Positions 7,745 to 22,016 of a DNA stretch of 22,550 nucleotides are shown piece after piece. The position numbers were made by a program, and so were the translations under genes. Location: positions 1 to 22,550 of IMG/VR virus record IMGVR_UViG_3300049215_000835. One strand, written 5' to 3'. A model generated the notes under the pieces. The model ran no database searches and was not told the origin of the DNA. It worked only from the letters and a program-made list of their open reading frames with translations. Positions within the stretch are counted from its first letter, which is position 1, and each line of letters begins with the position of its first letter. This DNA comes from a virus.

Positions 7745-9484
7745 TTACGCCGTAACGGTGTTAGCATGTTGAGCCGCTTCCGCATTATGACCAACAACGT
7801 ATTGATCAACTTTATTTAGTATCAGCCGCGCTCTTTCAGTAATAAAATCTTCAAACTTATCTTCCGTCCAAAGGGTTTCATTTGCTGGTATTAAGTGCCT
7901 CATCGTAAATGCTTTTTTATCGGGCAGACTATCTATCCATTGTTTGAACGGTTTAGCATTCTTTTCACCACGGTTCGTACCATAATCCAACAATTGAAAA
8001 TTCTTTATACTGTTGATTTTACCCCAATCATATCCTAAGCCCTCCAGAATAGACTTCGGCATTATATGGTCAATATCCTGAGCCCTAATTGTTTGCTTCC
8101 TATCGTAGATGAGATAATACAAAAATTGACTATCCAAAGCGTCTAAATTTGAAGTGTCAAAGCTCTCCGTAAATATTACTCCGTGGTCATAATAAACATC
8201 AAATAACTCAGTTACCGGGAAATCGGTGTTCTTATAATTTACGATGACTTCAAGTATTTTTCTTATTCCGGTTTTGTAAGGTATCCAGCCCGCGCCTTTG
8301 CTTTTAAATACGCCGTTTAACAGAGAATAATAAACCCACTTTTTTATTTTAATAAATTCTGGATTGTTAGCATCGTGATTGTCAAAGAAAGCCTCTATTT
8401 GCTGATTTGAAATATTCTTATGGAAGATATGGTATGCAATAAAAAACAGTGGGATAAAAGAGCGGTTACCGTCCTTATAGTAAAACTGTAAATCGGAGTA
8501 AATCAAAAATTTCTTTAAGCCTGTTAAAACGCTTTTTATACGTTCGGATTGATCAATAGCAAATTGAGCGTCGGCTGCGCCTATGTCTGTCATTTCTTTT
8601 TTATGATTATCCTGAAGCAAGAAAATCAGCTTAATTAAATTATCCTGAGTAAGTCCAATATCACTATACTCAACTAATGTTTCCTCTAAAAAGCCCTCCA
8701 TTTGCCATTCAAATCCTTTTAAAATAGACGCTACTAAGTCAAAAGGCGATAGCTTTGTTCCGCCATCATTTAAACGTCTAAATAACTCAACAATTCTTTG
8801 CCGGTTCTGAGTTTCATTAAACGTTTTATCAATGGCAACCTCCGAAATGCCTAAACTTTTACCGCCAATAACATTTCGATAAAAGGCAGCAACATTTTCT
8901 AAAATGTGGTCTTTTTCATTATCGTCAGTTATGCTATCAGAAGCAATAATGCTCTTTGCCGTAGTCTTATCATTATTGGTTAGCTTAAGGCTTTTGAAAA
9001 GCTCGGTTAAAGGATACCATTTATACTCTTTGATCGTTTTGTTAGTATCATCTTTTGCGAACTTCGGCAATTTTTTATAGTCGCCTTCAAACTTAAACTC
9101 AAATTCAGCATTGTAATTGCTGAATAGGTCGAAGTACAATATTTTTCCATTGATTGTTCCGGACAAGCCAATGTAAAATGATTGCAGGCGCTGCTGCCCA
9201 TCAATTACAAAACTTTGACTTTGCTCTATCCGGGCTACTTCTAAAGAATTTATAGGCTCGCCGTCTTTTGTAAATGGCCGGAAGGAAAAAAGCGGCTTGC
9301 TGTTTTTTTCTTCTTTTATCACCATAATACCTCCAAAAGAATCTCCTTTTAGCAGCGTATCAAAAAGTAACTCCATTTTATCTTCATCCCATACAAGACG
9401 CCTCTGAATAACAGGCAGAACAAATTTCTTGTCGTCTATATCTGATATAATATCTCCAATACGATATGCCTCCCAATTTGCCAT
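7745..9484 (-). CDS. DUF262/DUF1524 nuclease (GmrSD-like)
   Basis: The 579-residue protein combines a DUF262 domain with a DUF1524 HNH-type domain, as in GmrSD type IV restriction enzymes that use NTP hydrolysis to cut modified DNA. DUF262 landmarks are LPVIQRRLVWD (23-33), the signature VIDGQQRL (93-100), and RRLNDGGTKLSPFDL (236-250). The DUF1524 part has the IDHIMPKS motif (His473), NFQLLD (495-500) and an Asn at 504 or 509, a complete-looking beta-beta-alpha metal site. It is the only minus-strand gene in the window, visibly AT-richer than its neighbours, and interrupts a tail operon that normally runs from tape measure straight to gpU. I infer an acquired defence or exclusion gene. The target is unknown. 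The convergent end lies 10 nt from the tape measure stop. Confidence 0.9.
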   Translation of the reverse strand: MANWEAYRIGDIISDIDDKKFVLPVIQRRLVWDEDKMELLFDTLLKGDSFGGIMVIKEEKNSKPLFSFRPFTKDGEPINSLEVARIEQSQSFVIDGQQRLQSFYIGLSGTINGKILYFDLFSNYNAEFEFKFEGDYKKLPKFAKDDTNKTIKEYKWYPLTELFKSLKLTNNDKTTAKSIIASDSITDDNEKDHILENVAAFYRNVIGGKSLGISEVAIDKTFNETQNRQRIVELFRRLNDGGTKLSPFDLVASILKGFEWQMEGFLEETLVEYSDIGLTQDNLIKLIFLLQDNHKKEMTDIGAADAQFAIDQSERIKSVLTGLKKFLIYSDLQFYYKDGNRSFIPLFFIAYHIFHKNISNQQIEAFFDNHDANNPEFIKIKKWVYYSLLNGVFKSKGAGWIPYKTGIRKILEVIVNYKNTDFPVTELFDVYYDHGVIFTESFDTSNLDALDSQFLYYLIYDRKQTIRAQDIDHIMPKSILEGLGYDWGKINSIKNFQLLDYGTNRGEKNAKPFKQWIDSLPDKKAFTMRHLIPANETLWTEDKFEDFITERARLILNKVDQYVVGHNAEAAQHANTVTA

Positions 9485-17248: not shown

Positions 17249-18421
17249 ATGGCAGGAAATGCACAATTGAAAGTGTTTAAGGTAAACGTATTACCCGGCA
17301 CGTTAGAGGCGAATGCAATTTATTATGTGAAGACAGGCGCAATGTTCCGCTGTTATATTACGGACAATACGGGGGCAATCGTCCAGGAGGACTCGGTTAC
17401 AGCTGCGCAATTATCCGGCAAACAAAATACCAGTACGGAGCTGACAACGATTGCCGGTATTGCCGCGGCAAACAATGATATTATCCAGCGTAAAGGAGGC
17501 GTATGGGTCAACCGTACACCCGCGCTGTTTAAGGCGGATTTAGCCCTTGTAAAAGCCGACGTGGGTTTGGCTAACGTAGATAATACATCGGACGTAAACA
17601 AGCCCATATCTACAGCAACGCAAACAGCTATCAACAATACCAACGCCACCGTTACCGCGCATACCGGCAATACGGCAAACCCGCACGGCACTACACTGGA
17701 GCAGGCGCGTACCGCGGGCAATATTCTGGCGGGCGCTATCAATATGAACGGCAACCGCATACAGAATTTGCCGGACGCTGCTTCCGCTTCCGAGCCGGTA
17801 ACAAAGGCGCAGTTTGATGCGGTAAATACTTCCGCGGGTAAGCAGCGCGGGGAAATAGACTGCTCGGCAAACCCTAACTATCCCGCTTCAAAAGCGGGTG
17901 ACCGTTGGGAGGTAAGCGTTGCGGGTAAGATCGGCGGCGCTGCCGGTATTGACGTGGACGTGTACGATGAAATTGTTTGTAAGACGGACAGCGCGGGCGG
18001 TACGCAGGCAGCCGTGGGTAATAGCTTCTATGTCATACAGGGTAATTTGACACGCGCCACGGAAACGGTAACAGGCTATTCCCGTATTGCGACTACCGAA
18101 GAAGCCAATGCCGGTGCGGATAATACCACGTTCATGACGCCGCTGAAAGTAAGGCAGGTCATGGACACGGTTACGGTAAAGACTTCCGGCAATCAGGTTA
18201 TAAGTGGCGTAAAGACATTTAGCTCCTCACCTGTTATTCCTGACGCGGTAAATGATACCGAGCCTACCTCTAAACGTCAGGTAACAGGTATGATCACCGC
18301 TTCCGGTGCGCATACCCACCCGAACATTGCGGTACTGAACAGCCTTGTCGACGTAGGCGACGGTAAAAGCCTTGCCTATCAGGGGTCGCCGGTAATGCGT
18401 TGGGAAACGGTAGAATGGTAA
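17249..18421 (+). CDS. Tail fibre protein
   Basis: The 390-residue protein is a fibre or its host-binding shaft. The N-terminal 45 residues (MAGNAQLKVFKVNVLPGTLE and on) are shared in pattern with the next gene. A helical/trimeric coil zone (about 50-130) includes the motif VGLANVDNTSDVNKPIST, widespread in tail fibres, followed by HTGNTANPHGTT and a second segment GNRIQNLPDAASASEPVTKAQ. Near the end a repeat of the type DTEPTSKRQV leads to the C-terminus. No catalytic residues are visible. The leader is A-rich without Shine-Dalgarno. Confidence 0.85.
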   Translation: MAGNAQLKVFKVNVLPGTLEANAIYYVKTGAMFRCYITDNTGAIVQEDSVTAAQLSGKQNTSTELTTIAGIAAANNDIIQRKGGVWVNRTPALFKADLALVKADVGLANVDNTSDVNKPISTATQTAINNTNATVTAHTGNTANPHGTTLEQARTAGNILAGAINMNGNRIQNLPDAASASEPVTKAQFDAVNTSAGKQRGEIDCSANPNYPASKAGDRWEVSVAGKIGGAAGIDVDVYDEIVCKTDSAGGTQAAVGNSFYVIQGNLTRATETVTGYSRIATTEEANAGADNTTFMTPLKVRQVMDTVTVKTSGNQVISGVKTFSSSPVIPDAVNDTEPTSKRQVTGMITASGAHTHPNIAVLNSLVDVGDGKSLAYQGSPVMRWETVEW

Positions 18422-18444: not shown

Positions 18445-18954
18445 ATGGCAGGAAACAGATTATTGAAATTGTACAAGGTAGCGGAGGAGCCGGGGGCATT
18501 GACCCCGGACTCCGTTTACATCATCAAAAAGCCGGGCGACACCGGCTTTGACATAAAGGTATCAGACGCAGGCGGCGGCGTTTTGTATGCTATGAATTGC
18601 TGCGCTGACGGCGGCGGAAGTAACCCCGGTGGTGGTGGCACAACAACGCTGCCGTATAAATCCTATACGGCTATCTTCTTACAAAGAGACCAGCGCCCGC
18701 CGACTTTAGCGATAGAATTGCAAAACGATTTCGAGGGAGCTACGCCGCAGACAATCTACAATGAGCCGGGTATGTATAGTATCATTATGCCGGGAGTATT
18801 CACGGAGCGGACGTTGGTATTCTGCAACGCAATGGATACCGATATGGTCAAGCCGCGCATTGCCGCCGGGCGATATACAGAGGGCAGTGAAATACAGATA
18901 AGTTGCGGGCAGGATAATAACATTATCCAGCTCGACGTAAGGATATACGGATAG
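18445..18954 (+). CDS. Second fibre-type protein, shared N-terminus
   Basis: The 169-residue protein begins MAGNRLLKLYKVAEEPGALT, closely patterned after the start of the fibre encoded just upstream. Both give MAGN..LK..KV, then PGxL, a YxIK or YYVK strand and a second strand pair. A Gly/Ser linker (GGGSNPGGGG, residues about 55-65) then joins a beta-rich C-terminal part without any homology to the upstream fibre that I can see. I interpret it as a short fibre or cap using the same attachment site. The A-rich leader (GAAATAAGAA) is again without Shine-Dalgarno. Confidence 0.7.
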   Translation: MAGNRLLKLYKVAEEPGALTPDSVYIIKKPGDTGFDIKVSDAGGGVLYAMNCCADGGGSNPGGGGTTTLPYKSYTAIFLQRDQRPPTLAIELQNDFEGATPQTIYNEPGMYSIIMPGVFTERTLVFCNAMDTDMVKPRIAAGRYTEGSEIQISCGQDNNIIQLDVRIYG

Positions 18955-20075: not shown

Positions 20076-20234
20076 ATGGAAAATGAAAAAGAAAAGAAGG
20101 ACAATCCGAAAGGGTTTAATTACCGGGAGCAACATGCGGTCATTGTCCGGGTAGCAACGGAACAGGAGCAGAAAGAAGTATTTGAAAAACTAAGGGAATT
20201 AGGATTTACGGATTTAAAGGTCGTATCGGTATGA
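20076..20234 (+). CDS. Small 52-residue protein of the ATPase cassette
   Basis: A 52-residue open frame starts at ATG 20076, five bases after the spanin stop (TAG 20069-20071), and its TGA stop overlaps the next ATG (ATGA). The product is highly charged at the start (MENEKEKKDNPKGFNYR) and then predicted beta-alpha-beta (AVIVRVATEQEQKEVFEKLR, GFTDLKVVSV). The rigid overlap with the ATPase gene argues for a coupled real gene. I do not recognise its family. A regulatory or subunit role for the ATPase-acyltransferase is possible. Confidence 0.65.
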   Translation: MENEKEKKDNPKGFNYREQHAVIVRVATEQEQKEVFEKLRELGFTDLKVVSV

Positions 20235-20920
20235 GGATAGAGGTAAACCATAGTTGCGAAAACTACAAATCATTCAGGGCGGAAAAAGTAAAGTCCCTGT
20301 TCAACCCGGAAAGCGGGCATACGTGGAGCCATATTGCCGATATACCCGTCGAAGGGAACGGCTGGCAGATAGGATTGATCGTCGGTGCTTCCGGTAGCGG
20401 TAAATCCAGCCTCGGCAAACAGGTATGGGGCGCTGACCGCGTACATGACCTGTACAGCGGTTGGGATAACGATAAACCTATTGTCGACTGCATTGCACCG
20501 GAAGGAGATTTTAAAGCCGTTACGGGTGCGCTGGCATCGGTCGGCCTCGGCGATGTTCCGGCGTGGCTGCGTCCTTTTAAAGTTTTGTCCAACGGGGAGC
20601 AATTCCGCGCGGGGCTGGCAAGGCTTACCATTGACGCGCCGGACAAAGTAGTGGTGGACGAGTTCACCTCCGTTATTGACCGGCAGATTGCGCAGGTCGG
20701 CGCTTCCGCCTTTGCAAAGGCATGGCGCAGGAATACGGGTAAGCAGATCATTCTGCTATCCTGCCATTATGATATTATTGATTGGCTGCAGCCGGATTGG
20801 GTCTATGATACCCGGACGGCGGAAGTAAAAAAAAACTCCAGCCAAGGCCTCCTGTTTCCCTTGACGTATGGAAGGTCAACGGAAGTTACTGGAAGTTTTT
20901 TAAAGCGCATTATTATTTAG
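20231..20920 (+). CDS. ABC-type ATPase, zero-frame part of ATPase-GNAT
   Basis: The zero frame encodes 229 residues, but the authentic ABC domain ends near residue 202; the last 27 residues are a short out-of-frame tail. Walker A is VGASGSGKSS (51-60), the signature LSNGEQ (119-124), Walker B VVDEFTSVID (141-150) with Asp143/Glu144, and the H-loop His179 (SCHYDIIDW). The combination resembles the ABC ATPase of COG2401-type proteins, in which an ATPase is joined to an acetyltransferase domain. It has no membrane partner, so it should act as a soluble ATPase, not as a transporter. The overlap ATGA couples it to the 52-residue protein. Codons 201-202 and the base before form a slip site that would connect it to the GNAT frame. 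Confidence 0.82.
   Translation: MRIEVNHSCENYKSFRAEKVKSLFNPESGHTWSHIADIPVEGNGWQIGLIVGASGSGKSSLGKQVWGADRVHDLYSGWDNDKPIVDCIAPEGDFKAVTGALASVGLGDVPAWLRPFKVLSNGEQFRAGLARLTIDAPDKVVVDEFTSVIDRQIAQVGASAFAKAWRRNTGKQIILLSCHYDIIDWLQPDWVYDTRTAEVKKNSSQGLLFPLTYGRSTEVTGSFLKRIII
20830..20836 (+). promoter_or_regulatory. Candidate -1 frameshift heptamer A_AAA_AAC
   Basis: In the nine-A run 20827-20835 followed by C, the zero-frame codons AAA AAC with the preceding A form A_AAA_AAC, a canonical -1 slippery heptamer. A shift there makes the open GNAT frame continuous with the ATPase (374 residues in total). A possible stem (20854-20865 with 20875-20886, one C-C mismatch) lies about 18 nt downstream, which is further than usual. 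A sequencing or replication indel in the A-run is the alternative. Confidence 0.6.
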
Positions 20921-21354
20921 ACCTGCCGCACCCGCCGTGCGCGGAATATTTTGTCGCCACGGTAAATGGTGAGCTGGTCGCCCATGTTGCGGTTACACCT
21001 TTCTTTACCGCCAAAGCATACCGCGCAACACGCTTGGTGGTAATGCCTGAATGGCAAGGGGCGGGCGTAGGTACGCAGTTCTTAAAATTTGTTTGCCAGT
21101 ACCATTTAGAGGGCAACGGCAGGAAGGGTAACAAATACCCTGTTTTCTTTCATACTTCCCACCCGCAGTTATGTGCCTACCTGCGAAAAGCAAAAGGCTG
21201 GATACAGACCGGCGCAATGATGTACGGCGCAAATAAAAAGCGGAGCATGGAAAGTATCAGGCGTACACATAAATCAAAAAGTTTTAAAGATTCTTCCGCG
21301 GGATACGGCGGGCATTTCCGCGCAATACAGGCGTTTAAATACATAGGTGAGTGA
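20836..21354 (+). CDS. GNAT acyltransferase domain, -1 frame part of ATPase-GNAT
   Basis: The -1 frame is open from the slip site to 21354 (172 residues). It shows a GNAT fold: strands around CAEYFVATVNGELVAHVAVT, then the acyl-CoA-binding motif RLVVMPEWQGAGVGTQFLKFV (Q-G-A-G-V-G pyrophosphate loop), and a further strand with FFHTSHPQLCAYLRKAKGW. The C-terminus is basic (NKKRSMESIRRTHKSKSFKD), suitable for nucleic acid contact. An own start at TTG 21034 would remove the first GNAT strands, so fusion by frameshift is more likely than separate translation. The stop overlaps the formyltransferase GTG start (GTGA). The substrate is unknown; a nucleic acid base is proposed by analogy with Mom, a GNAT-related protein of Mu. 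Confidence 0.75.
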   Translation, partial: LQPRPPVSLDVWKVNGSYWKFFKAHYYLDLPHPPCAEYFVATVNGELVAHVAVTPFFTAKAYRATRLVVMPEWQGAGVGTQFLKFVCQYHLEGNGRKGNKYPVFFHTSHPQLCAYLRKAKGWIQTGAMMYGANKKRSMESIRRTHKSKSFKDSSAGYGGHFRAIQAFKYIGE

Positions 21355-22016
21355 GCAGAGGGTTGAAGATTTTTATATCAGGACAAAAGAAGTTTGGAGA
21401 GGAAGTATTGCGGCTGTGCCTGCAAAAAGGTTGCGAAGTAAAGGGCGTATGCTGCCCGCCGCAGGATAAGTACATAGGGACGTTAGCCCGCCTGCATGAA
21501 ATACCCATAATTCCCGCCGGTACACTGAACGCGGACACTATGACCGGCGACGTGGACTTGGGCATTACCGCGCATTCATTTGACTACATAGGAAAGCGGA
21601 CACGCTATATACCGCGCCTCGGCTGGATCGGATACCACCCGTCCTTACTGCCGCGTCACCGCGGGCGCTCCGCCATTGAGTGGGCTATCCGCATGAATGA
21701 CCCCGTTACCGGGGGGACTGTATTCTGGCTTAATGCCGGGATAGACCGCGGCGACATTGCATACCAGGACTGGTGCTTTATTGACCCCGCCCTGCGTATC
21801 AAAGAGCCAAAGAAAGCTGCCGCGGCATTATGGCGGGATACGCTGCTGCCTATGGGCGTAAAGCTGATAGGCAAGGCAATAGACGACATATCCGCCGGGG
21901 TCATTATCAAAATTCCGCAGGAAGACAGGTATTCCACATTTGAGCCGGGGACGGATGTTAAAGACGTGTTCAAACCTGACCTGCTGATGCTTCCCGCCAA
22001 AACCTCCGCAGGATAA
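21351..22016 (+). CDS. Formyltransferase-family protein (FDH hydrolase-like)
   Basis: The 221-residue protein has the formyltransferase N-terminal fold. The start KIFISGQKKFGEEVLRLCL and the core GWIGYHPSLLPRHRGRSAIE (residues about 91-110) match the hydrolase domain of 10-formyltetrahydrofolate dehydrogenase better than Met-tRNA formyltransferase. Likely catalytic His is 96 and Asp 132 in GIDRGD. The Asn used by Fmt and GART two residues before the His is replaced by Gly94, as FDH-type enzymes also lack it. The C-terminal segment LPMGVKLIGKAIDDISAG again fits FDH. The OB-like C-terminal domain of Met-tRNA formyltransferase is missing. The GTG start overlaps the GNAT stop. A one-carbon donor role in base modification is inferred. 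Confidence 0.82.
   Translation: MSRGLKIFISGQKKFGEEVLRLCLQKGCEVKGVCCPPQDKYIGTLARLHEIPIIPAGTLNADTMTGDVDLGITAHSFDYIGKRTRYIPRLGWIGYHPSLLPRHRGRSAIEWAIRMNDPVTGGTVFWLNAGIDRGDIAYQDWCFIDPALRIKEPKKAAAALWRDTLLPMGVKLIGKAIDDISAGVIIKIPQEDRYSTFEPGTDVKDVFKPDLLMLPAKTSAG

Follow-up and report, generated by a model that had tools for sequence, protein, structure and literature searches.

The closest described relatives of the system analysed here are phage proteins in which an ABC ATPase is joined to a GNAT acyltransferase, a COG2401-like architecture for which acyl modification of DNA bases has been predicted (Iyer et al. 2013; repeated in Iyer et al. 2021, PMC7824862). We analysed a member of this family in a virus record of 22,550 bases (IMG/VR record IMGVR_UViG_3300049215_000835, hereafter the window, meaning the whole stretch), where a three-gene cassette encodes a 52-residue protein, an ABC ATPase with a GNAT domain, and a formyltransferase resembling 10-formyltetrahydrofolate (10-formyl-THF) dehydrogenase (FDH). 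As in the predicted systems, a phage ABC ATPase with complete ABC motifs is coupled to a C-terminal GNAT carrying the acyl-CoA motif; among the phages named in PMC7824862 is Tenacibaculum phage pT24, with an ATPase 45% identical to the one in the window. The cassette differs in that the GNAT is reached via a -1 frameshift junction, a ParB C-terminal domain stands detached and an FDH-like formyltransferase is added, none of which is mentioned in PMC7824862. An earlier, sequence-only reading of the window had treated DNA modification by this gene set as a new idea, whereas for the ABC-GNAT part the prediction was already in print. The frameshift, the ParB C-domain and the link to formyl-coenzyme A (formyl-CoA) were not found in the searchable literature, which excluded the Iyer 2013 source; within the same coverage, nothing relevant was returned for the ParB/GNAT/formyltransferase cassette or the COG number of the family, and no report of frameshifting in the ABC-GNAT family was found.

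We are nearly certain that the cassette is a conserved, frameshifted unit. Its three genes are translationally coupled, and the gene set and stop-to-start overlaps, as the sequence-only reading had described them, agree with the sequence coordinates: the 52-residue open reading frame (ORF) overlaps the ATPase start via ATGA, and the end of the GNAT frame overlaps the formyltransferase start via GTGA. The simple joining of ATPase and GNAT assumed in that reading does not hold, since the two domains lie in separate frames, the ATPase frame stopping at 20918-20920 and the GNAT frame, displaced by -1, ending at 21354. Judged from the sequence, the only plausible junction is a run of nine adenines (A9), which is read GTA AAA AAA AAC. 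The GNAT frame of the window holds no ATG, GTG or TTG before 21034, deep in the domain near the acyl-CoA motif, so the GNAT would be made solely via a slip at this run. An independent start for the GNAT was rejected, as no start codon precedes the domain core; across loci, the frame ahead of the invariant Phe25 lacks ATG, GTG and TTG in 49 of 66, and ATG in 63 of 66.

The relatives were drawn from scans seeded with the ATPase and with the formyltransferase, plus GTDB genomes, and at an ATPase identity of 50% or more they amount to over 160 loci. With near-duplicates removed, a -1 shift is required in 62 loci, 70 have the two domains fused in frame and 2 show a +1 relation. An in-phase A-heptamer lies at the junction in 61 of the 62 shifted loci versus 1 of the 70 in-frame loci (Fisher p = 1.5e-35), the run being A9 in 29, A10 in 23, A7 in 6, A6 in 2 and A11 in 1. 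The -1 shift is retained across ATPases 55-96% identical, and runs of 6, 7, 9, 10 and 11 adenines each come with flanking changes that preserve the -1 relation. On a maximum-likelihood ATPase tree the frame label changes 3 times, compared with 46.6 times for shuffled labels; the direction of the change is unsettled because the bootstrap had not fully converged and the outgroup sits on a long branch. Downstream RNA structure follows the length of the run, as a hairpin lies 5-7 nt beyond the short A6 and A7 runs (mean z -2.79 vs -0.44 for runs of at least nine, p = 5.7e-6). In the A7 hairpin 93% of cells are paired, and two pairs are changed on both sides, which is suggestive of compensatory change among the only six A7 sequences. 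A strong, universal stimulatory hairpin was not found in the A9-A11 members. On a simple reading, a hairpin stands in for a long slippery run, as would be expected were frameshifting itself selected.

These sequence patterns point to conserved programmed -1 frameshifting rather than to ordinary fusion or error, and the best known parallel is dnaX. Both have in-phase slip sites (A_AAA_AAG or A_AAA_AAN), long A-runs and hairpins in some members (PMC3711429), and in both a short and a long product come from one ATPase, here as a prediction. The cassette differs from dnaX in that the extension adds a catalytic acyltransferase domain. With plain ORF calling the gene falls into an ATPase and a fragment that lacks a start, which makes the frameshifted branch of the family easy to overlook.

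The A-run could instead reflect phase variation, faulty sequencing or decay of a fusion gene, and some loci could be read in this way, since homopolymers change in length: one relative (L139) has A10 and reads in frame, another (L153) has A8 with a +1 relation, one (L013) is shifted without an A-run and one (L036) has a second shift within the ATPase. We consider such an origin highly improbable, because more than 60 distinct loci from isolates and metagenomes are all exactly -1, whereas a switch would mix in-frame and out-of-frame lengths; both domains, moreover, retain all their motifs, and hairpins occur where the run is short. The number of independent loci likewise rules out a sequencing error or pseudogene at the A9 of the window. 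More serious, though still short of probable, is a shift made during transcription, with RNA polymerase slippage adding A's at least in the A9-A11 members. The runs of the window and of most relatives fall within the known slippage range, as in Thermus dnaX (PMC3711429), and these members have no clear downstream hairpin, but efficient slippage needs a longer run than that of the A6 and A7 members, which have the hairpin, and just one locus lacks the in-phase X_XXY_YYZ heptamer. Since ribosomal and transcriptional shifts give an identical fusion protein, the main conclusion stands in either case. Two observations on the junction count against the overall explanation: no strong hairpin follows the A9 of the window itself (z about +0.7), and the in-frame A10 relative indicates that the shift is not strictly required in every member.

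That relative (L139:8001-9119) is the sole in-frame member with an A-run, an extra A restoring a constitutive 373-residue fusion inside the frameshift clade; its source is a metagenome-assembled genome (MAG), and an assembly error is possible. The shift without an A-run (L013:~6550) and the second frame change within the ATPase (L036:6318) may represent decay or sequencing errors.

Table 1. Features of the cassette, in window coordinates (A1, A4 and A5, alignments).
Feature	Position	Strand	Support
52-residue protein, stand-alone ParB-like C-terminal domain (phrog_28816 family)	20076..20234	+	phrog_28816 E = 4.2e-7
ABC ATPase, zero-frame product, 229 residues	20231..20920	+	Pfam ABC_tran above cutoff; phrog_11143 residues 1-195, E = 3.1e-82
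Walker A, GASGSGKSS	20384..20410	+	G52, S54, G55, G57 and K58 invariant in A1, A4
ABC signature, LSNGEQ	20585..20602	+	L119, S120 and G122 invariant in A1, A4
Walker B, VVVDEF	20648..20665	+	D143, E144 and F145 invariant in A1, A4
H-loop histidine 179 of the ATPase	20765..20767	+	H179 invariant in A1, A4
A9 slippery run; in-phase A_AAA_AAA (20827-20833) and A_AAA_AAC (20830-20836)	20827..20835	+	read GTA AAA AAA AAC
GNAT acyltransferase domain, -1 frame	20827..21354	+	Pfam Acetyltransf_7/_1 above cutoff; phrog_11143 residues 197-351
GNAT acyl-CoA-binding motif, QGAGVG	21055..21072	+	Q77, G78 and G80 invariant in A5
FDH-like 10-formyl-THF formyltransferase	21351..22016	+	Formyl_trans_N E = 2.5e-17
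Catalytic His96 and Ser98 (GYHPSLLP); Gly94 replaces Asn of Fmt/PurN	21636..21644	+	His 92/92, Ser 92/92
Catalytic Asp132 (equivalent to FDH Asp142)	21744..21746	+	invariant 92/92; aligned to FDH

The unit composed of ParB or its C-domain, the ABC-GNAT and the formyltransferase recurs across phyla, and the conservation of the cassette at more than 100 distinct loci goes well past what chance would give. A formyltransferase adjoins the ABC-GNAT in 114 of 121 distinct loci whose ATPase is at least 55% identical; since the loci found with the formyltransferase as seed are biased for such counts, the ATPase-seeded scans were also taken alone, and at the same identity 87 of 94 loci have the neighbour. 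Co-occurrence in other phages, which the sequence-only reading had proposed as a check, is thus strong. In 40 more distant loci no formyltransferase adjoins, and these retain ParB plus the ABC-GNAT. Among phages, the cassette corresponds to coding sequences 29-31 of Pseudomonas phage Komp_PAO1_1, to genes 1-4 of Gordonia phage Ligma together with the terminase (ParB-like, ABC-GNAT, formyltransferase, terminase) and, in Porphyromonas phages, to the right end of genomes of about 35 kb (in BK068090, 32.7-34.4 kb of 34.6 kb). It is also present in genomes of Bacteroidota, Pseudomonadota, Bacillota, Verrucomicrobiota and Planctomycetota, the nearest genomic relatives of the window cassette being Flavipsychrobacter MAGs (94%). 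In an Oscillospiraceae MAG contig (L188:1245-2849), ATPase, GNAT and formyltransferase form a single 534-residue ORF. Two further loci (L134:4545-4880 and L135:1721-2056) have the ATPase start running straight into the C-terminus of the formyltransferase, so that the cassette is internally deleted.

The formyltransferase is FDH-like, as the sequence-only reading had it. Its top PDB match, by a wide margin, is the hydrolase domain of 10-formyl-THF dehydrogenase (1s3i, E = 8e-20), and the His-Ser-Asp triad of that enzyme is invariant. The position of the Asn of amine formyltransferases is occupied by Gly in 90 of 92 sequences and by Ala in 2, so the Asn-His-Asp triad of Fmt, PurN and ArnA is absent. 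In FDH, the His-Ser-Asp triad hands the formyl group to the thiol of 4'-phosphopantetheine, and HypX has been proposed to make formyl-CoA likewise (PMC6802093); the transfer in FDH proceeds via a carrier arm (PMC8748788). The phage protein is similar to the FDH hydrolase domain (ALDH1L1) in sequence, in its triad and in the lack of the Asn, but it differs from FDH and HypX in being free-standing, without a carrier or aldehyde dehydrogenase domain, and in being linked to a GNAT instead. The N-terminal domain of HypX is a close counterpart in this chemistry, but sequence similarity to HypX itself is insignificant (E about 0.6). No carrier domain is present in the cassette; since the partner of the formyltransferase is a GNAT, an enzyme that uses such thioesters, CoA would be the expected formyl acceptor.

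The small protein points to DNA. In nearly all loci, the ORF directly upstream of the ATPase ends in a common segment of about 40 residues, YxxQYGVIVICxxExEQxxVFxxLxxxGxxxKVVxV, which in many of them terminates a protein of 170-270 residues with a ParB_N domain. The family of the 52-residue protein, phrog_28816, matches the last 37 or so residues of such full ParB-like proteins (residues 160-197 in L017, E = 2.8e-11; 237-273 in L211, E = 7.4e-13), and therefore the 52-residue protein represents a detached ParB C-terminal domain; docking with the ATPase-GNAT is its probable role. In their N-terminal parts, the upstream ParB-like proteins match families of ParB and of phage DNA methyltransferases (phrog_498, down to E = 3.9e-44), in agreement with the PADLOC type II methyltransferase model (MTase_II, E = 1.4e-21). 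They are thus alike to the phage ParB-like/DNA methyltransferase proteins of phrog_498 and phrog_620, from which the cassette differs in having no methyltransferase domain and, in Mu-like phages, in keeping only the C-terminal domain of about 40 residues as a separate protein. In Porphyromonas phage BK068090.1, the gene at 32675-32803 (L218:4876-5004), annotated as an "acr candidate", encodes the ParB C-terminal-domain protein of the cassette; with this homology identified, an anti-CRISPR label is probably superfluous.

The ATPase and GNAT halves are covered by a single PHROG, phrog_11143. An in-frame fusion model (L139; predicted local distance difference test, pLDDT, 86) matches ABC ATPase domains, consistent with the fold of an ABC nucleotide-binding domain (NBD), and the GNAT model (pLDDT 86.4) matches numerous GNATs at Foldseek E < 1e-6, resembling PaiA, SpeG and RimI. 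At residue 53 of the GNAT, all 161 members of the clade to which the window cassette belongs have His, and the 35 members of the clade without a formyltransferase all have Phe; in sequence terms this contrast fits an altered active site, but equally a plain clade difference. Two other identities were rejected. Despite the NBD fold, an ABC transporter is contradicted by the joined GNAT, the adjoining late or DNA-packaging genes and the lack of any membrane partner in view, and for a known defence system the PADLOC matches are weak for the ATPase and missing for the GNAT. In Streptococcus, Oenococcus and Lactococcus phages, relatives of the ATPase (H22-H31) bear the names "ABC iron siderophore transporter" or "ABC-transporter", which are probably misannotations. 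Matches to the ATPase also occur in hundreds of plasmid records, from Klebsiella, Escherichia and Acinetobacter; the matches listed are Acinetobacter plasmids of about 104-145 kb with about 33% identity over the C-terminal two thirds (e.g. CP116443.1, 107661-108038), which, from the sequence match, are possibly phage-plasmids carrying a distant version.

Taken as a whole, the cassette is best explained as a phage module for the acyl modification of nucleic acid, a reading to which we give about an even chance, and DNA is fairly likely to be the substrate. The idea of DNA modification gains support because the small protein is a ParB C-domain, whose usual N-terminal part is common to phage DNA methyltransferases, and because ABC-GNAT proteins were already predicted to acyl-modify DNA bases (PMC7824862). 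The ParB-like protein, or in the window its C-terminal domain alone, would tether the enzyme to DNA or to a DNA-bound partner, and the ABC ATPase dimer would act as an ATP-driven clamp that opens or scans the DNA. The formyltransferase, by the chemistry of FDH and HypX, would take formyl from 10-formyl-THF and load it onto the phosphopantetheine thiol of CoA; from the resulting formyl-CoA, or a related thioester, the GNAT would pass the group to an exocyclic base amine (N6 of A, N4 of C or N2 of G), with N6-formyladenine or N4-formylcytosine as conceivable products. Frameshifting would give two products, the ATPase alone and the ATPase-GNAT, whose ratio would set the number of GNAT-bearing subunits per ATPase dimer and hence the catalysis per clamp. 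Formyl-CoA as the donor is a tentative assignment, on balance doubtful, and the complete scheme, in which the FDH-like enzyme charges CoA, an ATP-driven and ParB-guided GNAT formylates base amines and frameshifting doses catalysis, is rather unlikely to be right in every part. To our knowledge, no GNAT uses formyl-CoA and no enzyme N-formylates DNA.

The mark on the bases would mask phage DNA from host nucleases, in the manner of Mu Mom, and a masking role similar to that of Mom is likely. Mom is also a GNAT-superfamily enzyme encoded at the right end of a transposable phage, as is the cassette in Porphyromonas phages, the window record itself being a 22.5-kb fragment. It differs in having no ABC ATPase, ParB domain or formyltransferase, and the cassette GNAT matched only general acetyltransferase families (Pfam, PHROGs, NCBIfam) in searches that did not include a direct comparison with Mom. 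A vague prediction of DNA modification by ABC-GNAT proteins becomes concrete and testable: the parts of the system are defined, a mass shift is expected and one representative is in culture, Pseudomonas phage Komp_PAO1_1 on the laboratory strain PAO1. If the proposal is true, folate-derived acyl marks would join the known ways in which phages hide their DNA, formyl-CoA would have a use, and programmed frameshifting would tune a modification enzyme.

Several observations weigh against this proposal. The GNAT fold is generic, its top matches being polyamine and protein acetyltransferases. Seven loci with ATPases at least 55% identical and enough downstream sequence have no adjoining formyltransferase, yet His53 is kept throughout the clade. 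ParB_N (PF02195) was found neither in the 52-residue protein nor elsewhere in the window record, nor in eight of nine viral relatives scanned (the exception being the record of L014), Komp_PAO1_1, the Porphyromonas phage or the Gordonia phage, in a scan insensitive enough to have missed Ligma gp1, which is ParB-like according to PHROGs; DNA targeting would then rest on a domain of 40-50 residues. The formyltransferase could, alternatively, act after the GNAT, which would place an amine-bearing acyl group such as glycyl or aminoacyl on the base, the amine then being formyl-capped as in Met-tRNA by Fmt. Mom adds a glycinamide-like group, Fmt and PurN, both amine formylators, are among the closest characterised folds, and the sister clade has the GNAT core without the formyltransferase, indicating that the core can act alone. 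The replaced Asn, the invariant FDH triad and the wide margin of the FDH match all argue against such late capping, which we regard as unlikely. Alternatively, the cassette could modify a protein, tRNA or small molecule, for example host RNA polymerase, the ribosome or a surface sugar, in host takeover or anti-defence. The resemblance of the GNAT model to PaiA, RimI and SpeG would suit such a target, as would the sugar and tRNA formyltransferases among the known relatives, the existence of phage GNATs that modify host proteins (PMC7824862) and the acr label given by the annotators of the P. gingivalis phage. This possibility carries some weight but is not the one we expect, because the small protein corresponds to the C-terminal domain of ParB, halves of which are common to DNA methyltransferases, terminase and portal genes adjoin the cassette in other phages, and the homology identified for the small gene makes the acr label unnecessary.

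The window carries genes of a contractile-tailed phage, namely head, tail sheath, tape measure, baseplate and fibre. Its right end is taken up by genes for a holin and a lipoprotein, the cassette and then a glucosaminidase gene; the annotation of the lipoprotein as a spanin is weak (Rz-like PHROG, E = 0.014). The sequence-only reading had seen the cassette as interrupting the lysis genes. Its placement between the holin plus putative spanin and the glucosaminidase stands, but the meaning attached to it does not, as this setting is confined to the nearest relatives (L002-L004, L137 and L138, L002 stopping short of the glucosaminidase gene). Elsewhere, the cassette occupies the right end of Mu-like genomes or adjoins terminase or portal genes.

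Two other regions of the window deserve mention. On the minus strand, a 579-residue ORF (7745-9484, phrog_17051) splits the tail block between the tape measure and a tail protein. In the fibre region, the adjoining proteins encoded at 17249-18421 and 18445-18954 begin with near-identical N-terminal motifs (MAGN..LK..KV...PG.L....Y.), which suggests a duplicated attachment domain.

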